Part shown: piece after piece, positions 1,424 to 21,846 of the stretch | How the letters are laid out: each line of letters begins with the position of its first letter | How positions within the stretch are numbered: position 1 is the stretch's first letter | Source: an archaeon | Lineage (GTDB): Archaea; Thermoplasmatota; Thermoplasmata; Methanomassiliicoccales; Methanomethylophilaceae | Assembly: GCA_024399195.1 (NCBI GenBank) | Contig: JAKSHW010000005.1 | Coordinates: 1 to 33,715 of the forward strand | Reading direction: 5' to 3' | DNA: 33,715 nucleotides | Notes under the pieces: model-generated | What the model saw: the letters and a program-made list of their open reading frames with translations, nothing else | Told to the model about the DNA's origin: nothing | Databases searched by the model: none | Made by a program: the position numbers and the translations under genes

Positions 1424-2608
1424 TCAGTTGTCTTTCACACGGAGGGCCGACTTGAGGTCGAAGTCGGGATCGGTGGGTTTCAGATCGGAAACGAAGATGA
1501 TGATGTCGGGTTGGGCCTTGAGGATGACCTCCTCCTTGACCTCCTGGTTACCGGTGTGGGTGACGCAGTTCTTGAATCCGAAAAGCTCGTATAGGTCGTT
1601 TGCAAGGGTGTTGAGTCCGCGGGCCTTGTTCTCTCCGACGTTGATGTAGAGGGCGGTCCTGGTGTAGTCGTACTTGGACTCCTGTTTCTGGGCCTCCTGT
1701 CCGCAGGCGTAGAGGTGGAGCCTGACGTAGTCGACGATCTCCTGTGCCTTGTCGCCGTATCCGAGGAGGTACGCGACGACCTCGATGTTTCCGAGGATCG
1801 CAGGCATGTCGGTGACGTCGAAGGTGACGGAATAGGAGTTGAAAACGGACATCTGTTCGGTGAGCCAGTCGTCGGCCTCGGAACCGATGGTTCCCATTCC
1901 CATGAAGCAGACGGTCTTTCCTGCGTCCTTGATGTCTCCGAAGACGGACATGTACTGCTCCTTGTACTTCATGATACTGGTACAGGAACCCATCTTGATG
2001 GAGGTCTTGTCCTCGGTCACGGGGATACCGTACTGGGTGTCGAGGTACTTGATGAAACCGCTGTCCCCTGCGTAGATCTTGGAGTAGAGCTCCTTGATGA
2101 CGGCGGGGTCGCAGTCCTTGTAGTCGACACCGTGGGCCGCACAGAGGACGGTGTACACGGTGGAGGTGAAGGAAGCGGCACAGATGAAGTAGTCGGGAAG
2201 GTTCTTGATGGTGATCTCCTTGGGGGTGTAGACGGTCTCTCCGTCGTTCCTGATCATCTTGGTGACGGTGAAGGTGCCGTTCCCGTTGTCCTTGACGAGC
2301 TTCTGATAGGGGAGGAAGTCGTCGGGCACGTCGGAGATGGAGTATTTGGAATAGTCCATGTCCTCACCGTAGATGGTGGAGTACCAGTAGTCGGCGACCT
2401 GTGCGATGTACGCACTTCCGGTCATGTTGGACGAGGAGGTGTTGGTGAGAAGGGGGTCCCACGAACCCCATCCTTTGCTAGGGTCGTATTCATGGTCTTC
2501 CTTGGAGATCTTCTCCGGGGTGCTGTCGGTCATTATGATGACCGCGATAGCACCTACGATGACCAATACGGCCGCAATGAGGATCACTGCATAGCCTTTT
2601 GTGTTCAT
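1424..2608 (-). CDS. Membrane-anchored FecB/BtuF-type substrate-binding protein of the nitrogenase-like locus
   Basis: This 394-residue protein is probably the outer-surface receptor of a metal-chelate importer. Residues 7-29 form one hydrophobic segment that would anchor it in the archaeal membrane. There is no lipobox cysteine. The C-terminal half has the class III binding-protein signature, with a helix-strand ending ILKAQPDIIIFVSD typical of FecB/BtuF lobes. The usual N-terminal opening (R-I-V-S-L) is not obvious, so the ligand site may be divergent. The open frame continues about 1 kb upstream across the NifK-like gene, but the ATG at 2608 is the believable start: hydrophobic sequence begins there and a TATA-like box (about 2639-2644) plus a 27-bp palindrome lie directly before it. 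The partner permease and ATPase are at 6164-8093. The ligand is unknown; corrinoid, haem-like or siderophore are candidates. Confidence 0.8.
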   Translation of the reverse strand: MNTKGYAVILIAAVLVIVGAIAVIIMTDSTPEKISKEDHEYDPSKGWGSWDPLLTNTSSSNMTGSAYIAQVADYWYSTIYGEDMDYSKYSISDVPDDFLPYQKLVKDNGNGTFTVTKMIRNDGETVYTPKEITIKNLPDYFICAASFTSTVYTVLCAAHGVDYKDCDPAVIKELYSKIYAGDSGFIKYLDTQYGIPVTEDKTSIKMGSCTSIMKYKEQYMSVFGDIKDAGKTVCFMGMGTIGSEADDWLTEQMSVFNSYSVTFDVTDMPAILGNIEVVAYLLGYGDKAQEIVDYVRLHLYACGQEAQKQESKYDYTRTALYINVGENKARGLNTLANDLYELFGFKNCVTHTGNQEVKEEVILKAQPDIIIFVSDLKPTDPDFDLKSALRVKDN

Positions 2609-2611
2609 TCT

Positions 2612-2638
2612 ATCATTTGGATGCTTTATCCAAACGAT
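2612..2638. promoter_or_regulatory. Operator-like palindrome, site 1 (binding-protein promoter)
   Basis: Two 11-base arms around a GCTTT spacer match at 10 of 11 positions, with core TTTGGAT-N5-ATCCAAA. The site lies between the TATA-like box (about 2639-2644) and the start codon at 2608, where an archaeal repressor would block transcription. The same core occurs at 6148 and, degenerate, at 6094. Confidence 0.75.
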
Positions 2639-2688
2639 ATATCGCATTCCTGTATATTTGGACGATGGTATATTATGTCGGTTTTTGT

Positions 2689-3942
2689 TCATTGAACGTT
2701 GAATATCGAGTCCAATATGTTCAACGTTCCCCTCACCCCGACCACGGTCTTGTTGTTGAACAGAAACTCCCTTCTCGGAGGGAATCCGATATCCACCCCT
2801 TTTCCGAACTTCCCGGACAGTTCCCACATGGCGGAATAGTCTCCTGAGGAGAACAGGTAGTCCCCTTCGGTGGCGGGTTTCCCCACTATGTCGCCCAGAC
2901 CGTTCTCCTCCGCATATTTTTCCAGTTCTTCTTTCAGAGGGTCCGGACCTATGCCGTCCACCGCCACGGGTATCATGGATAGGTATCTGTGGAGCCACCT
3001 GCACAGGGGTACCGCGGTGGAACCTTCGCATTCTATCGCGAAATGTGCACCGGTCACGCGTCTGGCACGGCGTTCGTCGGAAAGGAGGACGCTTCTCACA
3101 CGCTTTCTGGTCGAGCAGAGATGTTCCAGTGCAACGGAAGGGTCGTGTCCCGTCATTTCGGCCACCGAACGTATCCATTCTTCGGTGGCGTCGAACCCTA
3201 TCGGTGCGTAGTCCATGCGGTTGCAGGGGATGCCGAACGTGTCCTCGTAGTATCTGCCCAACTTCTCGCAGCAGTCGGGGTACACGCATATGTTGTACTC
3301 CGCATCGGCGGACCTGCGCACCTCCTCCACAGAGGAACCCGCCCCTATGGCGGTGTGCACCTTCAGGCCCATCATGTCCAAAAGGGAAGTGACCTCTTCG
3401 ACCGTGCCTTCCCAATCCCTGCACAGCAGCGGTATACCTATGAGGTTCACCGTATCCTTCATTTTCGTACGCGGAACGGGTCCGATGAACTTCACTATCT
3501 CGGTGGTGACCGAGTCCGTGCCCTGTGAAAGGGTCTGGGACACGGGGTTGAAATCGATGGTGAAGGCCCTGTCCGACAGTCCGAGGTCGTCTATGGCCTT
3601 CCTGACGTTGTCGCCTATGAGGGCGGTGGCTGGAGAGTCGATGACAACGATCAGAGGGCATCCTCTCGAGGCGATCCTTTCCAAGGCCTCCTTCACCTTG
3701 TCCACTCCGCCGTAGATGTAGTCTTTCTCATCGAGGAACGTACACGGTATACGGGGGTTCCCGTTGAAATAGGGGTCGAGGCTGTCCTCTGCGGAATCGG
3801 TGGGACGTGAATACAGTTCCCTTGACAGGCGCATGTACCTGAACCTGCATCCTCCGGGTCCGTGCAACAATGTACAGACGTCCTTGAACCCCTCGGCGGC
3901 CATGAGGGCCCCTGCGAAACCGTCCGGTCTTATGAAAACCAT
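2689..3942 (-). CDS. NifK-like nitrogenase-superfamily component 1 subunit
   Basis: This 417-residue protein is the likely second subunit of a heteromeric nitrogenase-like reductase, pairing with the NifD domain of the upstream gene. Family marks are GALMAAEGF followed by HGPGGC (residues 27-32), the DEKDYIYGG motif (71-79), IGDNV (109-113), and a late VDYAPIGFDATEEW-type segment. By eye against NifK, the three P-cluster cysteine positions read Asp7, Cys32 and Ser103, so only the middle one is kept. That is the position of Asp36 in the chlorophyll enzyme subunit BchB, which bridges a [4Fe-4S] cluster. The start lies one base after the stop of the H-D fusion gene, so translation is coupled. 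Electron acceptor and substrate cannot be read from sequence. It is shorter than true NifK. Confidence 0.85.
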   Translation of the reverse strand: MVFIRPDGFAGALMAAEGFKDVCTLLHGPGGCRFRYMRLSRELYSRPTDSAEDSLDPYFNGNPRIPCTFLDEKDYIYGGVDKVKEALERIASRGCPLIVVIDSPATALIGDNVRKAIDDLGLSDRAFTIDFNPVSQTLSQGTDSVTTEIVKFIGPVPRTKMKDTVNLIGIPLLCRDWEGTVEEVTSLLDMMGLKVHTAIGAGSSVEEVRRSADAEYNICVYPDCCEKLGRYYEDTFGIPCNRMDYAPIGFDATEEWIRSVAEMTGHDPSVALEHLCSTRKRVRSVLLSDERRARRVTGAHFAIECEGSTAVPLCRWLHRYLSMIPVAVDGIGPDPLKEELEKYAEENGLGDIVGKPATEGDYLFSSGDYSAMWELSGKFGKGVDIGFPPRREFLFNNKTVVGVRGTLNILDSIFNVQ

Positions 3943-3943
3943 C

Positions 3944-6061
3944 TCACATCATCCTCCATCCTTCCATCCTGCCCATCCTCATCGAGTCTTCCAGTCTTCT
4001 GCCGAGCTCTTCCAGTCCCGGTAGGCCCATGAACCCGTCCGTCAGTTCCATGTGGTGGCAGTCGAGGCTTCTGACGGCCTCCGAACGGGATATCATCAGT
4101 TCGGGACGGTCTGTGGGGAAGTCCCTGATGGCATCCTCGGTACGGTAGTCGGTCCTGATCGGTGCGGTGCATCTTCCTACGTCATGGACTCTTTTCCTCT
4201 TCCCTGTGAGAGGTCCGAACCCGATGTACACGATGTCCATTCCCAGGTCCTCCATGAACTCCGTGGCCCAGGAGATGTTCTTGGGCGTGTCGCAGAGGAT
4301 CGCCACACGTACGCCTTTCAGTATGGGCATGAGTCTTTCCACCAGTCTTCCGTATCCGTCACGGACCTTCTCCACCGCCTCGGTCGCGACATCGTTCCTG
4401 TCTAGCTTCTCCCCCAGGGCGGTGATCCAGCTGCATGTCTTCTCAAGACCTATCGGGGCGGGGGCCGAAAGGTATTCCATCCCACAGCAGGTTTTGAGCT
4501 CCTCGGCCATCTCTCTCGCCATGGCGACATCGGTGACCACCACGTTCAAGGAACCCTTCTTCAGGTTCACTATCTCTTCCAGACCGCATCCCCCTATGAA
4601 CCTGCAGTTGATCTTAAGTCCGAACAGGCCGAAGAGGTCGTCCAAGGCCTTCGTCTTGTCCTTGTAGCTGAGCTTCATGAAGGACATGGCTAGGATGTTG
4701 ACGTATCCGGGGTCGGGTCTCACATCGGGGTCGATATACCTGAACATGGCCTTGGTGGCCATCCACAGCCCCTCGCCCATATGGCCGGTCATGTTGCCGT
4801 CGCATCTGACGGAGGTTATCCTGACCCCCTCGTGGGAGTTTTCCACCTCCTTCACGATCTTGTCAACGTCGTCCCCTATGATCCCCGCCATGCAGGTGGT
4901 GATGACCATGATGTCCTTGGAACCCGACGACACCATCTGTTCCAGTTTCGAACGGAGCCTGCGGTCCCCTCCGAATATGGAATCCGAGTCGGTGATCCCC
5001 GTGCAGTGCATCTTGGTGCCCGATGGGACGAATCCGAGACATCTGCGGGAGGCGTCGTTGGAGGACATGCGGTCGTGGAACGACGAGAATATGTACGCAC
5101 AGCTGTCCGGAGAGTGCAGCAGTATGTCGAGACCGTCCACGAAATACCCTATATCGACGGCACCTGCCGCGGAACACGTCTCCAGGACGTCGCCTTTTCG
5201 TAGTTCACATCCCTTTCCACAGGGGACGTCCGTCACGGATCCCGGCATCGGTCTGCGGTTCTTCAGTATGCATTCCATCTGGTCGTCGTCCAAGGGCCTA
5301 GCGATGTGGAGCTCTTCACCGTTCCCCGCCTTGACGACGGCGTCCGCTATCCTGCATATCTCGATGGAGGGTTCGCTTCCCGGGAACATGGCCTCGACCG
5401 GTTCGTTAGCCTTTTCGCATTCGGTTATGATCCTGGTGCGGGGGATCCTCGCTATGACAGGGAGACCCACACTGTCAGCGAAGTTCCCTACTATGGTATC
5501 CTCGTTCTCGACACCGCGGGAGTTCTGCACTATCCCGAGTACACGGGGCGTCTCCCCGTCGAGTCTTCTGATGCCTTTGAGGATGTTGTTCGCCGCGAAC
5601 ACGGACATGTACTCCCCGGAGGTGACCAGGACTATTCCGTCGGACCTGTCGGACCTCATGGGTACGGCGAACCCGCCGCAGACCACGTCCCCGAGGACGT
5701 CGAACACCTTGAAGTCTGGTTGCAGGGACCCTATGCCGAGGTTCTCGAGGATGTCGAAGGTGGTTATTATGCCCCTTCCGGCACATCCGACACCCGGTTC
5801 GGGACCGCCCGATTCCACACACAGGACTCCGCCTTTTCCTTCGACCACTATCTCCCCGAGGTCGGAGGGTTTCCTGCCGTCGACCACCTTCTCGAGGACC
5901 GTGGCCTGTCTGCCCGTGGGGAGCAACAGGCGGGTGGAGTCGTGCTTGGGGTCGCATCCTATGTGGAGCACCTTCCCTTTCGATGAAAGAACGAACGATA
6001 CGTTGGAGGACACGGTGGATTTCCCAATTCCCCCTTTGCCGTAGAATGCGACGCTGAACAT
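3944..6061 (-). CDS. NifH-NifD fusion: nitrogenase-like Fe protein joined to component 1 alpha-type domain
   Basis: This single 705-residue polypeptide joins two proteins that are normally separate. Residues 1 to about 245 are a full Fe protein: P-loop GKGGIGKST at 8-16, DPKHDST at 37-43, and the [4Fe-4S] ligands Cys93 (GVGCAGRG) and Cys128 (DVVCGGFA). It would bind ATP and pass low-potential electrons. Residues about 272-705 are a NifD-type domain with candidate cluster cysteines 281 or 285, 321 (HSPDSC) and 390 (ITTCMAGIIGDD), plus the SIFGGDRRL motif at 361-369. Where NifD has the FeMo-cofactor cysteine (LNLVHC), this protein has Asp511. The reading frame is continuous through the linker, so this is a real fusion in the sequence as given. 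It leads an operon with the NifK-like gene; no nifB, nifE or nifN is present. True nitrogenase is unlikely. A tetrapyrrole, corrinoid or other metal-chelate reductase is possible. Confidence 0.88.
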   Translation of the reverse strand: MFSVAFYGKGGIGKSTVSSNVSFVLSSKGKVLHIGCDPKHDSTRLLLPTGRQATVLEKVVDGRKPSDLGEIVVEGKGGVLCVESGGPEPGVGCAGRGIITTFDILENLGIGSLQPDFKVFDVLGDVVCGGFAVPMRSDRSDGIVLVTSGEYMSVFAANNILKGIRRLDGETPRVLGIVQNSRGVENEDTIVGNFADSVGLPVIARIPRTRIITECEKANEPVEAMFPGSEPSIEICRIADAVVKAGNGEELHIARPLDDDQMECILKNRRPMPGSVTDVPCGKGCELRKGDVLETCSAAGAVDIGYFVDGLDILLHSPDSCAYIFSSFHDRMSSNDASRRCLGFVPSGTKMHCTGITDSDSIFGGDRRLRSKLEQMVSSGSKDIMVITTCMAGIIGDDVDKIVKEVENSHEGVRITSVRCDGNMTGHMGEGLWMATKAMFRYIDPDVRPDPGYVNILAMSFMKLSYKDKTKALDDLFGLFGLKINCRFIGGCGLEEIVNLKKGSLNVVVTDVAMAREMAEELKTCCGMEYLSAPAPIGLEKTCSWITALGEKLDRNDVATEAVEKVRDGYGRLVERLMPILKGVRVAILCDTPKNISWATEFMEDLGMDIVYIGFGPLTGKRKRVHDVGRCTAPIRTDYRTEDAIRDFPTDRPELMISRSEAVRSLDCHHMELTDGFMGLPGLEELGRRLEDSMRMGRMEGWRMM

Positions 6062-6163
6062 GCACAGTGAATCGTGTTTTGTATTATAATGTGATTGGAT
6101 GAATAATCCTTTTGTAAAAACAGTAATGATTATATCAGTTCAAACGGTTTGGATGACATATCC
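6062..6163. promoter_or_regulatory. Divergent promoter between the H-D fusion and the FecC-type permease
   Basis: Two TATA-like elements face outward: one at about 6083-6091 for the minus-strand fusion gene, and TTATATC at about 6130-6136 for the plus-strand permease. Both lie about 25-30 bases from their start codons, with no clear ribosome binding site, consistent with leaderless or very short leaders. Operator-like copies lie between them and over the permease start. Confidence 0.6.
6094..6113. promoter_or_regulatory. Operator-like palindrome, site 2 (degenerate)
   Basis: ATTGGAT-GAATA-ATCCTTT keeps the GGAT-N5-ATCC core and spacing of sites 1 and 3, but the outer bases of the right arm differ. 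It lies between the two divergent TATA elements. Confidence 0.5.
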
Positions 6164-6166
6164 ATG
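6148..6166. promoter_or_regulatory. Operator-like palindrome, site 3 (permease start)
   Basis: TTTGGAT-GACAT-ATCCATG has the same core and 5-base spacer as site 1. It overlaps the ATG at 6164 and lies downstream of the TATA-like box, which argues that the in-frame TTG at 6149 is operator rather than a start codon. Confidence 0.65.
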
Positions 6167-7228
6167 AAAGCCGACGACCTGTTCCCGCCGACATCCCAGA
6201 ACGACCTTGACGAGATCGTCAGGCAGAAACGTTCCAAGTCGATATTCGTCATTATCTTCTTGATAATCATAACGGCCACGATATGTTTCTGCAGCATATT
6301 CGTAGGGTATGCGGACATCTCCCCGCGTGAGGTCATAGAGGTATGGATGGGGAAAGGGAACTGGCAGAACACCTACATCGTCGAACAGATCCGTATGCCC
6401 CGTATAGCCTGTTCAGCGGTCGTGGGTGCGGGCCTTGCGGTGGCGGGTATGGCCATGCAGGCCCTTTTCAAGAACCCCTTGGCATCGCCTTCCGTGTTAG
6501 GTATATCCAGCGGTGCGGCATTCGGTGCCAATCTTGCGATAGCCTTCGGGATAGGGGCCTTTTTCGGTTCGTACTCCGTCTCGGTCATGGCTTTCATATG
6601 CTGTTTCATCACCCTCCTCGTCGTTTTCGCCATAGCCACCACCAGGCACGGTACCACTACCATCCTTCTCCTGTTGGCGGGAGTGGCCGTCGGATCCTTC
6701 TTCGGGGGCATGACCTCGTTCCTGCAGTATTTCGTGGACGACGCCGATGTTCTGCAGAGCATGGTCTACTGGTCCATGGGTAGTTTCGCCAAGTGCGACT
6801 GGTTGGACTTCAAGGTCAGCCTCATCATCGTAGGCGTAGGGGTGGCGGTCATAATGCTCCGTTCCAAGGAGCTCAACCTTCTGACCCTAGGTGACGAACA
6901 GGCCAAGGCCTTAGGTGTGAACATCCCCCTGACCCGTACTTTGGTGCTCCTTGCCGACGCCCTCATCGTCGGAGGATGTGTAGCCATATCCGGTACCATA
7001 GGGTTCGTGGGACTGATAATCCCCCACATCTTCAGGACGTTGGTGGGTCCGAACCACAGCTACCTGGGAATCATCTGTGTGTTCGCAGGTGCGATCTTCA
7101 TGATGGTCATGGACATCATCGCAAGGAACAGTATGGCGACCGAAGTGCCTATAGGTGTCCTGACGTCCCTGTTGGGAGCACCGTTCTTCGTGTACATCAT
7201 GAGGAAGAAGAGAAACGAGATCTGGTGA
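6164..7228 (+). CDS. FecCD/BtuC-family metal-chelate ABC transporter permease
   Basis: This is the integral membrane channel of an importer for iron chelates, haem or corrinoids. After a short charged N-terminus there are about nine to ten hydrophobic segments. Family marks include RMPRIACSAVVGAGLAVAG, the run NPLASPSVLGISSGAAFGA, and the late GTIGFVGLIIPHIFR loop that docks the ATPase. Length from ATG 6164 is 354 residues, normal for the family. I chose ATG 6164 over TTG 6149 because the TTG lies inside the palindrome and the TATA-like box is about 30 bases before the ATG. The ATPase gene follows after 4 bases. It is divergent from the nitrogenase-like operon and shares its operator, so the two probably serve one pathway. 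Confidence 0.93.
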   Translation: MKADDLFPPTSQNDLDEIVRQKRSKSIFVIIFLIIITATICFCSIFVGYADISPREVIEVWMGKGNWQNTYIVEQIRMPRIACSAVVGAGLAVAGMAMQALFKNPLASPSVLGISSGAAFGANLAIAFGIGAFFGSYSVSVMAFICCFITLLVVFAIATTRHGTTTILLLLAGVAVGSFFGGMTSFLQYFVDDADVLQSMVYWSMGSFAKCDWLDFKVSLIIVGVGVAVIMLRSKELNLLTLGDEQAKALGVNIPLTRTLVLLADALIVGGCVAISGTIGFVGLIIPHIFRTLVGPNHSYLGIICVFAGAIFMMVMDIIARNSMATEVPIGVLTSLLGAPFFVYIMRKKRNEIW

Positions 7229-7232
7229 TACG

Positions 7233-8093
7233 ATGGAACTGGAGATCAACGACCTCAGATTTTCCTACGGGTCCAAGGAGACCCTCAAAGGACTCACGTT
7301 CAACGCCAGGCCCGGGGAGGTCTTGGGTATCCTCGGGGAGAACGGATGCGGGAAGACCACTCTGCTCAAGTGCATCAATTCCCTCCTGAAGCCTTCCGAC
7401 GGACGTATCGAGATATTGGACTTCGACCAATCGGTGTTCTCCGAGAAGACCTTGGAGAAGGTGCAGGACGGGCGTCTGAACGTAAGGGATGTGTCCACCA
7501 AGGACCTCGCGAAGACCATGGCTGTCGTATCGCAGTCCGCGATTATCTCGTTCCCGTTCACGGTGCTTGAAGCGGTGATGATGGGGGCCTATTCCAAACC
7601 CAACGAGGTACGTAACGCCCCCAAGGAGAAGAAGGACCACGTCTTCAACTGTCTCCGTGACGCAGGTGCCTTGGAGCTCGTGCATAGGAACGTCAACGAG
7701 CTCAGCGGAGGAGAATTGAGAAGGGTGATGATCGCCCGTGCGTTGGTCCAGAACCCCACGACCCTCCTTTTGGACGAACCTACCCTCCACCTCGATGTCA
7801 TACACCAGATCGAGCTGATGGAACTGGTGACCGAGCTCGCTTCCAAGCATAATATCCTCGTCATAATGGTGACCCATGACATGATGCTTGCGGCCCGTTA
7901 CTGCGACAAGATCATCCTGATGGAAAAGGGACGTATCGTGGAGACCGGCCCCACCGAACAGGTGATGACCGAGAAGAACCTCGACGAGGTGTTCCACGTC
8001 CGTTGCAGGGTGCAGAAGGATGAGGAGATCAAAGGGCTCAACGTGACCATCGTGGGAAGGTCGAAGAACTATCGCGGATTCGGTTCGGAATGA
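7233..8093 (+). CDS. FecE/BtuD-family ABC transporter ATP-binding protein
   Basis: This cytoplasmic ATPase drives the importer encoded by the gene just upstream. Walker A is GENGCGKTT (35-43), the Q-loop glutamine is about 101, the signature is LSGGE (157-161), Walker B is TLLLDEPT (177-184) and the switch histidine is 215. An unusual stretch of about 25 residues (roughly 65-88) sits between the first lobe and the Q-loop, where most family members have a short link. The start is 4 bases after the permease stop, so the two are co-translated. With the binding protein at 1424-2608 this completes a binding protein-permease-ATPase set. Specificity cannot be told from the ATPase. Confidence 0.94.
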   Translation: MELEINDLRFSYGSKETLKGLTFNARPGEVLGILGENGCGKTTLLKCINSLLKPSDGRIEILDFDQSVFSEKTLEKVQDGRLNVRDVSTKDLAKTMAVVSQSAIISFPFTVLEAVMMGAYSKPNEVRNAPKEKKDHVFNCLRDAGALELVHRNVNELSGGELRRVMIARALVQNPTTLLLDEPTLHLDVIHQIELMELVTELASKHNILVIMVTHDMMLAARYCDKIILMEKGRIVETGPTEQVMTEKNLDEVFHVRCRVQKDEEIKGLNVTIVGRSKNYRGFGSE

Positions 8094-8164: not shown

Positions 8165-8184
8165 TACACTATATAGTTAGTGTA
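8165..8184. promoter_or_regulatory. Palindrome enclosing the TATA box of the MATE gene
   Basis: TACACTA-TATAGT-TAGTGTA is a perfect inverted repeat with 7-base arms. The TATA-like TATATAG (8170-8176) lies inside it, 25 bases before the GTG at 8198. A protein bound here would exclude TBP, a common archaeal repression arrangement. Confidence 0.65.
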
Positions 8185-8197
8185 CATACCGTGGTCC

Positions 8198-9589
8198 GTG
8201 CAACTATTAAAATCGGATAAAACAGACCTAGACGTCCTCCTCGGCGAACCCCGCAGAGCGATACGTCTGATGTTCCTTCCGTTCCTGATCGCCATGGCGG
8301 TCGTCCAGATCAACCAGTTCGTCGACACGTTCTGGGTGGCCGGACTCGGAAACACCTCCGCGGAGGCCGTTTCCACCGTGGTGCCCATCTATGCCCTGAT
8401 GGTCTGTGCCGGACTTGGTATCAGCGTCGGAGCCACCACCACCATCGCGTTCAGATTGGGACGTAAGGAGCACGAGGCCGCCAACAGTCTGGCAGCCAAT
8501 TCGTTGATCCTCGGTATCATCTTCGGAATACTCGCGGCCGTCATCGTGGCCATCGTCATCAACCCCGCCATCGACTTCCTCGGTGCGCAGTCCGTACGTG
8601 ACGAGAGCATCGCATATCTCATCCCCTACATGGTGATGTGTCCCGTCATGCTCGTCGACTCCATCATCGGAGGTACCCTCCGTGGAGAAGGTGCGGCGAG
8701 GAAATCCACAATCGTTCAGATGTCCGCGGCCATCTTCAACATGGTCATCGACCCCATCCTGATCTACGGACTGAACATGGGCGTCATGGGAGCAGGACTC
8801 TCCACCACCGTGTCCGCACTCCTCTCCGTGATGATCGCCCTGTACTGGTACAGGACCGGAAAGACCGTCATCCGTCTCGATAGAAAATCCTTCAAGGTCG
8901 ACAAGGCCATGATGCGCGAGGTCTTCGCGGTAGGAGGTCCCAGTGCCGGACGTACCGCTATCTCCGACCTCACCGATTTCTTCCAGCGTTTCTTCCTCAT
9001 CATCGCAGGTGGAACCACCTCCGTCATGCTCTACAACTATACCTGGAAATACATCGGTATCGTCAACCTTCCCGGAAGGGCGTTCGATTCCGCTATGGTC
9101 CCCGTGTGTTCCGCCGCCCTCGGTCAGAGCGATGTGGACAAGATGAAGACCGGTTTCCTGTACACCATGAAGCTCGCCATCACCTGCAGCGTGATCTTCA
9201 CGATCGTCCTCTTTGTGTTCGCCGAGCCCCTGATGTCCATCCTCACCTATGAGGAGTCCATGCACAAGCTTCTTTCACAGTTCGTATGGACCCTTCAGGT
9301 CTCCACCCTCCTGATCCCCTTCTCCGCCCTCATGGGAGTATGTTCCTCCCTTCTGCAGGCGATGAAGAAGGCCAAGATCCCCATGTACTTCTACATGCTC
9401 TGGGGATTCGGAAAGCTCGGACTCTACGCCCTCGCCGCCTACGGCTACATGGGCATCGATCCATTCGAGGGGATCATCTACAGCATGGTCCTGATCCACA
9501 TCATCGGTGGGATCTGTCTTCTCAGCCTCGCCCTCTGGCAGTTCAAGAAGGTCAAGGCAAGCGTTGAAGCGTCCAAGGCCGTCGCATAA
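8198..9589 (+). CDS. MATE-family multidrug/cation efflux transporter
   Basis: This is a membrane antiporter that exports organic cations, drugs or metabolites using a Na+ or H+ gradient. It has about twelve hydrophobic segments in two homologous halves. Its start, LGEPRRAIRLMFLPFLIAM then QINQFVDTFWVAGLG, is the usual MATE opening, and the first-half motif LRGEGAARKSTIVQM is present. The frame is open from GTG 8180, but that codon lies in the palindrome and only 4 bases after the TATA-like box. The GTG at 8198 is 25 bases after the box and fits a leaderless start, giving 463 residues. It stands alone, followed by a hairpin terminator. Substrate is unknown, and the operator suggests inducible expression. 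Confidence 0.92.
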   Translation: MQLLKSDKTDLDVLLGEPRRAIRLMFLPFLIAMAVVQINQFVDTFWVAGLGNTSAEAVSTVVPIYALMVCAGLGISVGATTTIAFRLGRKEHEAANSLAANSLILGIIFGILAAVIVAIVINPAIDFLGAQSVRDESIAYLIPYMVMCPVMLVDSIIGGTLRGEGAARKSTIVQMSAAIFNMVIDPILIYGLNMGVMGAGLSTTVSALLSVMIALYWYRTGKTVIRLDRKSFKVDKAMMREVFAVGGPSAGRTAISDLTDFFQRFFLIIAGGTTSVMLYNYTWKYIGIVNLPGRAFDSAMVPVCSAALGQSDVDKMKTGFLYTMKLAITCSVIFTIVLFVFAEPLMSILTYEESMHKLLSQFVWTLQVSTLLIPFSALMGVCSSLLQAMKKAKIPMYFYMLWGFGKLGLYALAAYGYMGIDPFEGIIYSMVLIHIIGGICLLSLALWQFKKVKASVEASKAVA

Positions 9590-15804: not shown

Positions 15805-18800
15805 ATGAGTAACTTATCGAAGTTCGTCATGTCACTGATCATCGTGTTCTGCATGGTCGGTGCATACACTGTATTGAACGATACAGGTGACGTGGACGCG
15901 GACACCAGGGACCAGATCGGCACCCTGGATACCGACGACGGATACACGTTCGTCCTGTATAGCGATAAAACAGCAACGATTAAAAACCTGACAACACAGG
16001 AGAAATCCGTTGTCCTCGCCAAGACCGTCACCTATGAAGGTGAGGAGTACACTGTGACCCATATCGCAGGTGCGGCTTTGAGGGGCTCCACTGTAACTTC
16101 CGTCACGATCCCCAACACCATCGTGGAGATCGAGAAACAGGACGGTATGTTCAGTTACGGTGCCTTCGAGTACAGCAGCATCGAGAACGTGTTCTTCGAG
16201 GAGAACAGCAGTCTCGAGAAGATCGGATACAGGGCTTTCGCAGGTTGTATCCATCTTTCGCAGATCGAGCTTCCATCCTCTCTGAAGGAGATCGACGACC
16301 AGGCGTTCGGACTGTACACTATGACCGCCTTCTTGCCTTCCGGGAGGGTCACCCTCAACTATGCGGACGTAGCATTGACCTCGATTCATATTCCCGCATC
16401 TGTAGAGAAGATTGGACTGAATGTGTTCCCCTACACGATGATGGATATCACCGTCGATCCGGAGAACAAGAACTTCTGTGTCGAGAACGGCATGTTGTTC
16501 GATAAGGGCAAGACGTTCCTTTACCGTGCTTTCGACGTATCCGGCGACGTTTCCCTGCCCGATACCCTCGAGACTGTCGGTGACTACGCGTTCAGGTTCC
16601 TGACAAAAGCGGACTATCCTGAAAGCGCCTTCGAGAAGCTCGGGATAACCGAGAATCCCATCCACTATGAGGTGGATATAACCAAGGTGACCATTCCTGA
16701 TTCGGTGAAGGCCGTCGGAAAATATGCGTTCAACAAGACCACTTTCGAGATCGCAGGTGGCAACGGTATTACCACTTTGGATACCGGTGCGTTCAACGGA
16801 GCCGTCGGAATGACCTCGTTCGTAGTCAATGAAGGATGTACTGTAGCATACGGTGCATTTACCGATTCCGGGCTTAAGGAGCTCATCGTCAAGGACATCA
16901 CTGGAAACTACACCTTCAGTGGAACCAATGTGGAGAGGATCGTCTTCTCCGCGGATACCATTGCCATCGGTAATTTCTCCAGTTCCAGCAATCTTACCAC
17001 CGTCACCTATGATGGTGCGGACGAGGGATGTTCCTTCATTCTTCCCCCAAATGTCAAGACCGTCCCTCAGAGAGCGTTTGACAGTTGTTCTTCTCTGACG
17101 GCTTTGAACCTTTCCAATATCGTTGAGATCGAGGACAACGCGTTTTACAGCTGTACCAACGTGACAGATGTAGTCTTCGGTGATAAACTGACCAAGATAG
17201 GCAGCTACGCCTTCTACCGTTCCGGAATAGATTCCGTCGTGTTCCCCGCATCGTTGGAATACATCGGTCAGAGCGCATTCTACAACTGTTCCGCACTTGC
17301 CAAGGTGGAATATCTCGGTGAGATCGTTTTCAGTACCAATACCTTCTCAGGTTGCAAAAAACTGAACTACACCGACTCTGAGACCGGCGTGGTCAGTATG
17401 CAGCTGTTCAAATACGATTCCGTTCTTTCCGATCAGGTCTGTTACAACTATGCTACGAGTTGGACTGCCACCGAAGACGGCATTGTGAAGTTCCCCTCGA
17501 ACCTTGTAGGGATCAACCCCAATCTTGTCAGTGGAAAGGATGTCAAGGGATTCGTGCTAGGGGACAATTCCGTCGGATTCGTTCTGGACAGGGGGGTAAT
17601 ATATAACGCCGACAAGACCGTCCTGATCCTTGCTTCCAGTGAACAGTCCGAGATCGTCATCCCCGAGTCGATCGTCGAGATAGGAAACTACGCCTTTTCC
17701 GGTGTGAAAGGGGATGTGAAGATAGATTTGGACAAAGCAGTCAACTTGAAGGTCATCGGAGACGATGCGTTCTACCACTGCGATTCGATAAAAACCTTCA
17801 ATGCACCTGCCACTCTGGAAAAGGTAGGTTCATCCGCCTTTTCCTATTCAGGCATCGAGTCTGCATCCTTCAGGGATGTCATGGCGGAAAACTTCGAAAT
17901 CGGCTCGTATGCTTTCAGCAACACGCCCGGTTTGAAAACCGTACTGTTGTCTGATAACACCTATTTCAACCTGGGGATGTACACATTCCAGGTCAGCGGA
18001 ATAGGGTCTTTGCATCTTGAGAAAGGGCATGTATACCACTCTTTTGAAAGTTGTGCCAACCTGAAAGAACTCTACTTCGGAAGAGGTGTGGACTATCTTT
18101 GGCAGAGCTCTATTCAGGCCTGTGACGCCCTCGAGACCGTTTGGATAATGTCTGACAATCTCGAATATGTAAGGTCCGATTCACTTCCCAACAACTATTC
18201 GGGACTTGTGATCACTCCTCTGGGTTCCGAGAACGACTACTCTTCTTTCTCCAAATATGCACGTGCATATGCAGCCCAGTCCGAATCCGGAAAATATCTG
18301 GTGATCCCCATCGATGTCGGAATGACCGTGGAAACGGTGTCCACCGAAGGCGATGATCTCACCGTTTCTTTCACTCTCAACAAGGGTTACACCGATTCCG
18401 TGTTCACCGTGTTCTTCAACGGTGTCGCCGTGGAGCTCGAGGACGGGGTCTTTACATTCACTCTCGTCGAGGGAGACAACGTCCTGTCCTTCGAAGGCAT
18501 CGAGAGGGACCATTACACCGTGACGGTCGAAGAATCCCCCATGTACGACATCGTCGTGTACAAGAACGAGACCCTTTTCGAAGAGTATCTGGTGTTCCAG
18601 ATCGTCGTCAAGGAAGGCTATGCCGTGTCCGGTCTTTCGGCCACTGTAGATGGTCAGACCTATCTTCCTTACAGTGACAACTTCTTCGCCGTCAGAATCC
18701 TCGGAAGCGGTACCGTGCATATAGACGGAGTCTCCCCCGAGACCTACTACGTCACCTTCATCGAGAACGGAAGGCTCGCCTATGTCGGTTCCGTGGAGTA

Positions 18801-21800
18801 CGGACAGACCTTGTCCGTTCCCGGACTCACCGATAAGGCATGGTATGTCTTCGGTTCCGATGAGGCATACGACTTCACCGAGCCCATCGTGTCCGATACC
18901 GAGTTCTACAACGTGCCTGTAGCGGACGACACGGTCTACTATCTTCTCGATTACACCCAGGTCCGTGGCGACCTTACCGTCACCGTGGACGGAAAACCGG
19001 TCACGTCCGGTTCCAAGGTAGCAGCAGGTTCTGAAGTGGACTTCGTCTTCGACGGAGGAAACAGCTTCGAGATCACCGGATGGTATGTCAACGGGGAATT
19101 CATCGGAACTTCTTCGAAGACCTTGGCTGTTGTCATGGACTCCAATATCTCCGTGATGTATTCCGTCAGGTACTTCCAGGGCGGATACGAGTACATCATC
19201 GACTCCCCCATACCCACGACCACCGAGGAGATCAAGGAGATGCTTTGGATCGGATCCTACAATGACCCCCTCACCCCCTCCTATAACTCCAACATGCCCA
19301 AGGGATATGTCGCCGTCGACGACTATCTGTTCATGGTCATCGACCACACCCTGTACAAGCTCGATCTCAACGGAGAGCTTTCCGAAGAGTCCATCAAGGC
19401 CTCTCTGCAGGTGGACCTCGGTGCCAACGGCGGCAACCTCTGCTATGCCAACGGTTACCTCTTCGAGCTCGGGACCAAGAAGGTCTTCGATACCGATCTC
19501 AACCTTGTCACGACCTTCACTTCGGCATATACCTCCGTGAAGGCGTACGGAGATTCCTTCGTCGCGTCCATGAGCCGTTACTTCTACAGGTTCGACATCG
19601 TCGATTCCGTGGATGCAGATGGAGAACCTACCAAGACCATCCAGAACAAATGGTCCAGGATCCTTCCCAGCGCATCACCCAACTACGGTATCTTCCAGCT
19701 CTATGACGGATACCTGTACTATATCGTCGCCTCCACTTCCTCCACCAGTCTTGACCGTGCACTCAGCAGCATCGATCTCGAGACCGGTGTGACCGTGGAC
19801 ACCTTCGACCTCAACCCCTACCACTACGGACACTATTACGACGACGGATGGCTCACCCTTTACGACGGCTATCTCTATCTCGCATCCTACACCTCCGGTC
19901 TCTTCGGTGAGACCAACAATGGTGTGGACGGAATACCCAAGCTCGTGCGTATTGCGGTCGACAAGGGTAACTTCGTCGACGAGTCCGTACAGTACATGGT
20001 CCTCCAGCAGGGACAGAAGTCCGGAGTCGTGGTATACAACGACCGCGGATACGTCAACGGCCGTAACGGGGAGTTCGTCTGTTTTGACGCCAAGACCTTC
20101 GAGGTCATCTATACGATGCGTGGAGCCGACACCCATGGAGGTATCGTGGTCGATACCGCCTACTCGACCCCCGAGAACAACTACAAGGTTCTGATCTATA
20201 TCGTCCCCTACACTCCTACCAAAGACCTGATAATCTTCGAGGATTCCCAGGGACAGACCGAAGGAAAGATGTACAGGATCGAGAACGTCGGTTATGCCCA
20301 GTACGCCACCACCGCCATCAGGGCGTCCGCCAGCGGAAACGTGTTCTGGTTCAACGATTCCTCCATCTTCTTCATCTACGGACACAAGGACATGACCGTC
20401 GAGTTCTTCGACGGAAAGGACAGGATCTCCGTCCAGACCGGGCTGCAGAACGGCGATTCGTTCGCCGTTCCCGATGCACCTTCCAAGGCCGGGTTCGAGT
20501 TCGTCGGATGGGTCGACGCCTACGGGAACACCATAACCTCCGACAGCAAGGTCAACGGAATGATGTCCGTCTACGCGATGTGGGCCCCCGCCGTTCTCGA
20601 TGTGACCTTCGTCGTGGACGGTGAGGTCTATGCGGAGGAATCCGTCGCCTACGGCGGTACCGTCACCCTGCCCAAGGATCCCGTCAAGGCGTCCGACGAC
20701 AAGTCCGACTACGTGTTCGCATACTGGTCCGTCGACGGCAAGGTCTTCGACGGAAAGGTCACCGCAGACACCGTCGCCATCGCCGTCTTCGACGCCATGC
20801 CCCGTACCTTTACGGTGACCGTCGTCTACAACGACGGAACCACCGAGAACGTCCCCGTGGTGTACGGTGACATGATCGACGGTCCCAGGGCCGTGTACAA
20901 ATACTACAGGGACTCCGAGATGACCAAAGTCTGGGCGCCCACTACCAAGATCTACCGCGACATCACTGTGTACGCGGTGGTCGGTATGTCCGGCTCCGCA
21001 GGTGCCGACACCGTATGGGAGATGGACTTCGCCACTGGAACCCTCACCATATCCGGAACCGGGGCGACCGATGACTGGACGGCCACCAAGACCCCCTGGT
21101 ACGCATACAGGAACCTGGTCACCACCTTCGTTGTGGATGAAGGTGTCACCTATCTCGGTGCATACGCCTGCTACAAGTACGCCAACCTCTCCGAGGTCGT
21201 CCTCTCCGATACCCTCGAAGGTACCGGAAAGTACGCCGTCGTCACCTACGTTGCCGACCATGTCAGGATCGGTTCCGGTCTCAAGGACCTCGGAATGCGC
21301 GGACTGTTCGGCATGACCTTCTATGAGAACGGATCCGTCGTCTCCGCGACCTCCTCCAACCTCAGGTCCAAGGAGTTCTTCGGAACCGACGGTGAGCTGT
21401 ATCTCGACAGTATCCACGGCACCGTGGGTGACGTGGAATGGACCATCGACTGTTCCGACAGGACCTTGACCGTATGCGGACAGGGTTCCACCGGTGACTG
21501 GACCGCCCTCACCGCCCCCTGGTATGCTTACAGGGCATACTTCGAGAACGTGGTCGTCGAGGACGGGGTCACCGAGGTCGGAGACTTCGCATTCTACAGC
21601 TATAGTGGAATCAAGAGCATCGTACTCTCCGACACCGTTGTCAAGGTAGGGAAGAACTCTCTCAGGGGCTGTGGTGCCCTCGAGGAGATCGTGTTCGGCG
21701 GATCCCTCGCCACCGTCGGTTCCAATGCCTTGTACGGATACACCTTCCTCGATATGGACGGAAAGGCGATCAAGCCTGTCGCATCCAAGCTTGCGGGACA

Positions 21801-21846
21801 CACATTCGTCGGAAACGGCGACAAGGTTCTCGCAATGACCGTCTGA
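15805..21846 (+). CDS. Giant BspA-like leucine-rich-repeat surface protein (2013 residues)
   Basis: A probable secreted or membrane-tethered adhesin. Residues about 6-25 are a hydrophobic signal or anchor. Residues about 60-830 are BspA-type LRR_5 repeats, with recurrent units such as IPDSVKAVGKYAFNKT and LEYIGQSAFYNCS. About 840-1120 hold beta-rich repeats. About 1146-1530 resemble a beta-propeller, with Y-rich strands ending in aspartate. About 1531-1720 contain two or three Listeria/Bacteroides (Flg_new, InlB B-like) repeats (GFEFVGWVDAYGN). Residues 1737-1870 and 1877-2013 are two copies of a domain starting [VE]W-x-[MI]-D and containing DWTA-x-x-x-PWYAYR. No C-terminal anchor is visible. 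BspA-type proteins in other microbes mediate attachment to host or other cells. The gene is alone, with a weak ribosome binding site and a strong terminator. Confidence 0.88.
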   Translation: MSNLSKFVMSLIIVFCMVGAYTVLNDTGDVDADTRDQIGTLDTDDGYTFVLYSDKTATIKNLTTQEKSVVLAKTVTYEGEEYTVTHIAGAALRGSTVTSVTIPNTIVEIEKQDGMFSYGAFEYSSIENVFFEENSSLEKIGYRAFAGCIHLSQIELPSSLKEIDDQAFGLYTMTAFLPSGRVTLNYADVALTSIHIPASVEKIGLNVFPYTMMDITVDPENKNFCVENGMLFDKGKTFLYRAFDVSGDVSLPDTLETVGDYAFRFLTKADYPESAFEKLGITENPIHYEVDITKVTIPDSVKAVGKYAFNKTTFEIAGGNGITTLDTGAFNGAVGMTSFVVNEGCTVAYGAFTDSGLKELIVKDITGNYTFSGTNVERIVFSADTIAIGNFSSSSNLTTVTYDGADEGCSFILPPNVKTVPQRAFDSCSSLTALNLSNIVEIEDNAFYSCTNVTDVVFGDKLTKIGSYAFYRSGIDSVVFPASLEYIGQSAFYNCSALAKVEYLGEIVFSTNTFSGCKKLNYTDSETGVVSMQLFKYDSVLSDQVCYNYATSWTATEDGIVKFPSNLVGINPNLVSGKDVKGFVLGDNSVGFVLDRGVIYNADKTVLILASSEQSEIVIPESIVEIGNYAFSGVKGDVKIDLDKAVNLKVIGDDAFYHCDSIKTFNAPATLEKVGSSAFSYSGIESASFRDVMAENFEIGSYAFSNTPGLKTVLLSDNTYFNLGMYTFQVSGIGSLHLEKGHVYHSFESCANLKELYFGRGVDYLWQSSIQACDALETVWIMSDNLEYVRSDSLPNNYSGLVITPLGSENDYSSFSKYARAYAAQSESGKYLVIPIDVGMTVETVSTEGDDLTVSFTLNKGYTDSVFTVFFNGVAVELEDGVFTFTLVEGDNVLSFEGIERDHYTVTVEESPMYDIVVYKNETLFEEYLVFQIVVKEGYAVSGLSATVDGQTYLPYSDNFFAVRILGSGTVHIDGVSPETYYVTFIENGRLAYVGSVEYGQTLSVPGLTDKAWYVFGSDEAYDFTEPIVSDTEFYNVPVADDTVYYLLDYTQVRGDLTVTVDGKPVTSGSKVAAGSEVDFVFDGGNSFEITGWYVNGEFIGTSSKTLAVVMDSNISVMYSVRYFQGGYEYIIDSPIPTTTEEIKEMLWIGSYNDPLTPSYNSNMPKGYVAVDDYLFMVIDHTLYKLDLNGELSEESIKASLQVDLGANGGNLCYANGYLFELGTKKVFDTDLNLVTTFTSAYTSVKAYGDSFVASMSRYFYRFDIVDSVDADGEPTKTIQNKWSRILPSASPNYGIFQLYDGYLYYIVASTSSTSLDRALSSIDLETGVTVDTFDLNPYHYGHYYDDGWLTLYDGYLYLASYTSGLFGETNNGVDGIPKLVRIAVDKGNFVDESVQYMVLQQGQKSGVVVYNDRGYVNGRNGEFVCFDAKTFEVIYTMRGADTHGGIVVDTAYSTPENNYKVLIYIVPYTPTKDLIIFEDSQGQTEGKMYRIENVGYAQYATTAIRASASGNVFWFNDSSIFFIYGHKDMTVEFFDGKDRISVQTGLQNGDSFAVPDAPSKAGFEFVGWVDAYGNTITSDSKVNGMMSVYAMWAPAVLDVTFVVDGEVYAEESVAYGGTVTLPKDPVKASDDKSDYVFAYWSVDGKVFDGKVTADTVAIAVFDAMPRTFTVTVVYNDGTTENVPVVYGDMIDGPRAVYKYYRDSEMTKVWAPTTKIYRDITVYAVVGMSGSAGADTVWEMDFATGTLTISGTGATDDWTATKTPWYAYRNLVTTFVVDEGVTYLGAYACYKYANLSEVVLSDTLEGTGKYAVVTYVADHVRIGSGLKDLGMRGLFGMTFYENGSVVSATSSNLRSKEFFGTDGELYLDSIHGTVGDVEWTIDCSDRTLTVCGQGSTGDWTALTAPWYAYRAYFENVVVEDGVTEVGDFAFYSYSGIKSIVLSDTVVKVGKNSLRGCGALEEIVFGGSLATVGSNALYGYTFLDMDGKAIKPVASKLAGHTFVGNGDKVLAMTV

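Follow-up and report, generated by a model that had tools for sequence, protein, structure and literature searches.

A NifH-NifD fusion with a NifK-like partner and a FecBCD-type importer in Methanomassiliicoccales: a putative reductase of imported corrinoids or related metallotetrapyrroles

Among the described nitrogenase-like enzymes, the tetrapyrrole reductases are those most relevant here. DPOR (BchL-BchN-BchB) consists of an Fe protein and an NB-type heterotetramer with one [4Fe-4S] cluster and no FeMoco, COR (BchX-BchY-BchZ) has three cysteine ligands in one subunit and the fourth in its partner, and the archaeal CfbCD combines a separate CfbC with CfbD, a single-subunit homodimer without a NifK partner. 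A further layout, in which nifH is fused to nifE and followed by nifN, has been mentioned without data for Archaea, Firmicutes and Deltaproteobacteria, as have NFL genes beside ABC transporters (Dos Santos 2012, PMC3464626). Fused nifH/nifE genes were also listed by Borrel 2014 (PMC4153887), and a 2024 survey reported a fusion in Methanomassiliicoccales as cluster 443 (PMC11237513); these accounts come without a function, an operator, a link to CobN or a family expansion. Here we describe such a locus, positions 1424-8093 of the first 33,715 nucleotides of contig JAKSHW010000005.1 (assembly GCA_024399195.1, Methanomethylophilaceae), the whole of which is referred to below as the window. It encodes a NifH-NifD/E fusion (HD), a NifK-like subunit (K) and an importer, and its sequence and surroundings suggest that HD-K is probably an ATP-driven reductase of an imported corrinoid or related metallotetrapyrrole, of the tetrapyrrole-reductase type and inside a cobalt/corrinoid regulon.

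The fusion gene (3944-6061, minus strand) is a single open frame of 705 codons, a length with a probability of about 5e-13 by chance at the local GC content. Pfam places Fer4_NifH (PF00142) at residues 4-268 (E 9.7e-77) and Oxidored_nitro (PF00148) at residues 296-663 (E 2.3e-57) of the 705-residue product, giving an Fe protein (1-268), a linker (about 269-295) and a component-1 alpha domain (296-705); the AlphaFold model has two well-folded domains and a linker disordered at residues 275-293. The K gene (2689-3942, minus strand; 417 residues; Oxidored_nitro E 1.9e-45) begins one base past the fusion stop, carries an invariant Cys32 in the motif LHGPGGC and yields a very confident structure model (pLDDT 94.5). 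It is followed on the same strand by a membrane-anchored substrate-binding protein (1424-2608; 394 residues from a corrected start, likely ATG 2608 and not 2695) with a weak Peripla_BP_2 match (E 7e-4). Running opposite to these three genes is a divergent pair, a FecCD/BtuC-type permease (6164-7228, plus strand; open from 6149, with its likely start at ATG 6164; FecCD E 6e-91, 305 bits against a cut-off of 26.5) and a FecE/BtuD/HmuV-type ABC ATPase (7233-8093, plus strand; 286 residues; ABC_tran 101 bits), so that permease, ATPase and weakly matched binding protein make up a FecBCD/BtuCDF importer at the family level. The original prediction had described this gene order in full, from the fused frame and the K gene one base behind it to the downstream binding protein and the divergent pair, and it stands apart from the corrected starts. 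The fused frame also supports the covalent tether of electron donor to acceptor that had been proposed. The claim that the layout was unreported was not borne out: the layout itself is not new, and the fused nifH-nifE and nifN of PMC3464626, with H and D/E in one frame and a K/N-like gene behind, share the same gene order and very probably belong to the same family.

The fusion family is a genuine branch of the nitrogenase superfamily, widespread but uncharacterised. Five H-D fusions and one separate Fe protein are encoded in the window's genome (2.27 Mb, 322 contigs, 89% complete), and the remaining four fusions share only about 30-36% identity with the copy in the window. Across 147 genomes of the order, counted at best E-values under 1e-120, full or near-full fusions occur in about 89, with up to seven in each, and the copy number among close relatives ranges from none to seven. 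Outside the order, fusion and K occur together in Methanococcoides, Methanoregula, Methanosarcina, Clostridium, Lachnospiraceae, Treponema and Myxococcota, the groups represented being Methanosarcinales, Methanomicrobiales, Firmicutes, Treponema and Myxococcota. An assembly artefact was rejected because the genome has five fusions and because fusions of about 700-735 residues recur in most Methanomassiliicoccales genomes, as well as outside the order; split H and D genes, which the original prediction had named as the sign of such an artefact, were absent from the closest relatives. In trees the D domains of the fusions group in a single clade and the accompanying K proteins in a second one. 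Sisters of this K clade are split H-D-K sets from Phascolarctobacterium, Negativicutes and a Bacillota metagenome-assembled genome, and Nif, CfbD, BchN/B and the Treponema group linked to cysK are all placed apart. These were quick trees with SH-aLRT support only, in which Mar was represented by the cysK/radical-SAM-linked Treponema Nfl proxy, while COR was judged by model scores; the family thus falls outside the Cfb, Nif and DPOR clades, and outside Mar by proxy only.

Several fusion genes contain one in-frame TAG each, namely L030/L057 (G037), L033 and L107 (both G090; L107 is G090:C84), L037 (G088), L066 (G072) and L116 (G067), and several CobN genes contain in-frame TAGs as well. The order is known to use pyrrolysine, and the TAGs are probably read through; their positions differ and twice lie in the H-D linker, on which grounds pyrrolysine in the active site of the fusion was rejected. 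At L144 (Lachnospiraceae RUG13087, 5300-5600), the reading frame changes between H and D, whose linker contains a repeated TGMTDRTG-like unit; the change may reflect a frameshift, a sequencing error or a slippery repeat.

Conserved cysteines relate the complex to the tetrapyrrole reductases. Over 79 fusions, Cys93 and Cys128 of the Fe protein and Cys321 and Cys390 of the D domain are invariant, and Cys296 is present in 97%. All 80 K proteins compared have Cys32; Cys67, at a different place, is found in 79%. Cys321 and Cys390 align with Cys88 and Cys154 of the nitrogenase alpha chain, and K Cys32 is matched to residue 36 of BchB, a conserved position at which DPOR has an aspartate cluster ligand and all 80 K proteins have cysteine. 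Because D Cys296, Cys321 and Cys390 and K Cys32 are conserved, these four are candidate ligands for one cluster, predicted to be [4Fe-4S], between D and K. Three cysteines plus one around a single [4Fe-4S] cluster, with no FeMoco, is the arrangement of DPOR and COR, and the ligand pattern of COR, as generally known, is matched by these four residues. The nearest solved folds to K, moreover, are those of DPOR, the top 11 matches all being BchB (TM up to 0.82).

That fusion and K form a nitrogenase, as their PF00142 and PF00148 domains could suggest, is exceedingly improbable. In alignment with nitrogenase alpha chains the FeMoco Cys275 position is non-cysteine, with no conserved cysteine there (the His442 region is unalignable). 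The P-cluster set of three cysteines in each subunit is broken, since D has three and K only the C95-equivalent. No NifE or NifN was found in the window's genome, where all 12 PF00148 matches are the five D domains, K proteins and CfbD, and all NCBIfam nif cut-offs were missed by far. Nitrogen fixation was rejected on the ligands and the missing NifEN.

The profile searches called for by the original prediction confirmed the domains of both halves and placed neither in a curated family. For the H domain the top model is CfbC (281.6 bits, cut-off 402), and for the D domain NifD and NifE (87 and 83 bits). The DPOR models gave 153 of 345 bits for BchL, 87 of 490 for BchB and 25 of 420 for BchN, and the COR models 162 of 331 for BchX, 22 of 425 for BchY and 39 of 529 for BchZ. 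As all curated Nif, Bch and Cfb scores lie far below cut-off, the fusion is a member of none of them. It differs from DPOR in its fused H and D, its cysteine in place of Asp36 and the lack of a chlorophyll pathway, from COR in being a fusion, and from CfbCD in having H joined to D and a K partner; the genome's own Cfb cluster (on C190) groups apart in trees.

The D-domain scores against NifD and NifE could instead point to a metallocluster maturase (a NifEN-like scaffold) or to a small-substrate reductase with an L-type cluster of the kind found in Mar or Isr, and the genome does encode NifB: a homologue over the curated cut-off lies at G000:C82:1591-2784 (minus strand), in a genome without nitrogenase. 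Its presence can be accounted for by methyl-coenzyme M reductase (MCR) activation, which NifB serves in methanogens (PMC12176620). K has one ligand-position cysteine instead of three, and hence no P-cluster pair; no radical-SAM partner or NifB-like gene adjoins the fusion loci; and the trees separate the fusion from the cysK/radical-SAM-linked Treponema Nfl, so that neither ligands nor placement by this proxy agree with the Mar/Isr/Nfa group IV enzymes. We consider such a function very unlikely.

The importer is bound to the fusion more often than its abundance predicts. FecCD permeases number 47 in the window's genome and 43 in G090 (genomes of about 2 Mb) against 3 in G071, an expansion so large that proximity to the fusion needs a statistical test. 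A FecCD gene lies within 6 kb of 28 of 42 fusion loci (19 genomes), whereas copy number alone predicts 6.6, and a count of 28 was not reached in any of 200,000 simulations. Gene orders vary, with K-FecE operons, divergent binding-protein-FecCD pairs, and FecE-FecCD-binding-protein sets upstream or downstream; because they differ between loci, they suggest repeated selection. All three members of the clade to which the window belongs (window, G090:C23, G088:C90) retain the divergent HD/FecCD-FecE layout, and together with the shared operator-like boxes described below these data uphold the dedicated importer of the original prediction. The permease matches BtuC best among NCBIfam models (271.6 bits, cut-off 461), and the ATPase matches the haem importer HmuV (219.7 bits, cut-off 261), reaching 196 of 537 bits with the corrinoid ATPase model, so the proteins fall short of a specific BtuCDF B12 importer. 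Expansion of BtuC-like importers in the order is known and has so far been read as plain B12 uptake (PMC10804542).

Other genes recur at these transporter loci. A substrate-binding protein at L021:2743-4056 has a dockerin-type repeat (PF00404) at its N terminus, an unusual feature for part of a transporter, and similar repeats were seen by eye in many binding proteins adjoining FecCD (e.g. L024:3562-5022, L228, L230, L245). An ABC-2-type exporter pair (ATPase and membrane protein) is conserved beside K at L063, L065, L069, L071, L075, L083, L085, L087, L092 and L095; the pair recurs across several fusion clades and is at times accompanied by an isochorismatase-like gene.

A shared palindrome also points to the substrate. 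Comparison of three divergent promoters of the window's clade revealed TTTGGAT-N5-ATCCAAA. In the window the operator-like palindrome is perfect at 2616-2634 (TTTGGATGCTTTATCCAAA, 0 mismatches), immediately ahead of the likely start of the binding protein at ATG 2608; a second copy at 6148-6166 (TTTGGATGACATATCCATG, 2 mismatches) overlaps the permease start, and a degenerate box at 6094-6112 (ATTGGATGAATAATCCTTT, 4 mismatches) lies 33 bp upstream of the fusion start. In 1.03 Mb of locus DNA a loose form of the palindrome matched 45 times versus once in a simple shuffle, and exact-core palindromes stood at the starts of HD, binding-protein, FecCD, FecE or CobN genes in 36 of 45 cases versus 7.7% for random positions (P 3e-32). 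Genome-wide, seven genomes contained 88 sites versus 9 for a reversed control pattern. In related genomes the box also precedes CbiMNQO, CbiD/CbiX, CbiZ, Met8-HemA and CobN genes (confirmed with Pfam), so that two boxes in the window are the same as those at cobalt and corrin genes in relatives; the palindrome appears to be a putative cobalt/corrinoid-responsive operator of the order. One site, at L252 (G072:C1:945517), has an Mntp manganese exporter on one side and a zinc-ribbon-like protein on the other and is unexplained by cobalt.

The box at HemA/Met8 and CbiD/CbiX, together with the best H-domain score against CfbC, would also fit de novo making or altering of a tetrapyrrole cofactor (an F430 variant or other reduced ring), with the importers supplying metal or precursor. 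DPOR, COR and CfbCD are all biosynthetic, which likewise counts for this possibility. It nevertheless seems quite unlikely, given that the genome has its own separate Cfb cluster, that a copy number of none to seven among close relatives is unlike that of a core pathway and that importers are the commonest neighbours. Synthesis of F430 itself by the fusion locus was set low on account of the separate Cfb cluster.

The fusion is also associated with CobN-type chelatases. In a sister family (three genomes), HD-K occurs together with FecCD-FecE, CbiZ, ChlI, ChlD and a 1247-residue CobN; Methanococcoides and Methanoregula have the order ChlI/ChlD-FecCD-FecE-HD-K with CobN nearby; CobN directly adjoins HD in G034 and at two G090 loci; and the split form of Phascolarctobacterium reads binding protein-FecCD-FecE-H-D-K-binding protein-FecCD-CobN. 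This resembles DPOR in that bchH, of the CobN family, adjoins bchNB/bchL in Roseobacter. By genome, both fusion and CobN are present in 79, the fusion alone in 10, CobN alone in 5 and neither in 53 (Fisher p 9e-24); by genus the corresponding counts are 18, 1, 0 and 11 (p 2e-7), p-values that overstate the strength of the link because related genomes are not independent samples.

Since genes of the cobalt, corrin and haem pathways share the box and since CobN and CbiZ adjoin, an imported corrinoid or related metallotetrapyrrole is the most likely substrate, in agreement with the tetrapyrrole or corrinoid class first proposed. Besides the non-independence of genomes, several observations weigh against this. 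The cobalt genes to which the box was traced are those of the relatives G034, G071 and G072, and some sites precede unrelated genes (Mntp, PhoU-like and leucine-rich-repeat proteins). Neither the window nor its two clade relatives have CobN beside the fusion, and ten fusion genomes have no detected CobN. The importer, a putative carrier of corrinoids, scores below both the B12 and the heme equivalog cut-offs; not every importer need carry a corrinoid, because FecCD is so expanded (47 copies in the window's genome); and at some fusion loci (e.g. L060, L077, L078) the nearest 6 kb contain no importer.

The haem match of the ATPase leads to an iron-based explanation, in which FecBCD imports an iron chelate, a ferric siderophore or haem, HD-K supplies low-potential electrons for iron release and the CobN-like proteins are HmuS-type haem de-chelatases. 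HmuS, a CobN relative of gut bacteria, strips iron from haem and needs a reductant (PMC12583661). The permease, by contrast, matches BtuC best, the box stands before genes for cobalt transport and for making corrins, none of the flanks examined contained an iron gene, and the corrinoid enzyme CbiZ sits in the clusters. We consider this explanation unlikely.

HmuS may equally serve as a model for the CobN partner of a corrinoid reductase, as it is a CobN-family protein of gut anaerobes that removes the metal from an imported tetrapyrrole with a reductant, although it works with the hmu operon and NADH and with no nitrogenase-like reductase; what the CobN/HmuS homologues of archaea do was described as unclear in 2025 (PMC12583661). 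By this analogy, HD-K and CobN-type chelatases could form a reductive corrinoid-stripping (cobalt-mining) or metal-swapping system, in which the tethered reductase would reduce the imported metallotetrapyrrole so that the chelatase can remove or replace its metal, as HmuS does for haem. We regard this more specific proposal as rather doubtful.

For the corrinoid or metallotetrapyrrole reductase favored here, the following course may be envisaged. The binding protein and FecCD-FecE would import the corrinoid or related metallotetrapyrrole, which would sit between the D domain and K, in the cavity where nitrogenase holds FeMoco. An Fe-protein dimer (H2) formed from two fusion chains would bridge two HD-K halves, docking on its tethered D-K pair, and would pass single electrons, one per ATP cycle, to the predicted [4Fe-4S] cluster, with three cysteine ligands from D and a fourth from K, and from there to the substrate. 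The sequences establish the parts of the system with their conservation and linkage; we infer the tetrapyrrole substrate and this electron path, and the reduction would act on the metal centre or the ring. The reduced product would then go to remodelling by the CobN-type chelatase and CbiZ. As to the purpose of the tether, it is a guess that it keeps the rate independent of Fe-protein concentration, or that it stops cross-reaction among five paralogous Fe proteins.

The CobN chelatases, the expansion of paralogues and the operator-like box go beyond the original prediction. As far as we could find, the four candidate D/K cluster ligands, the CobN/ChlI/ChlD/CbiZ neighborhood and the shared palindrome are new; a link of the fusion to CobN/ChlID/CbiZ or to the palindrome was not described in the literature searched, which covered few subscription journals. 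Lists of nitrogenase-like enzymes whose substrate is not known go back to 2012; the present analysis joins these enzymes and the archaeal CobN homologues to one putative regulon, offering a concrete candidate substrate class for the nitrogenase-like fusion of gut methanogens. If correct, it would add a new ATP-driven tetrapyrrole or corrinoid reductase, would explain the many BtuC-like importers in methanogens that depend on corrinoid methyltransferases and may bear on competition for cobalt in the rumen and gut.

Across the whole window, no RNA switch was detected by Rfam matching. Directly 3' of the ABC ATPase lies a MATE-family exporter (8180-9589, plus strand), and a MATE gene also neighbors HD in locus L072. 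Further along, 15805-21846 (plus strand) encodes a 2013-residue BspA-type leucine-rich-repeat surface protein with a List_Bact repeat.

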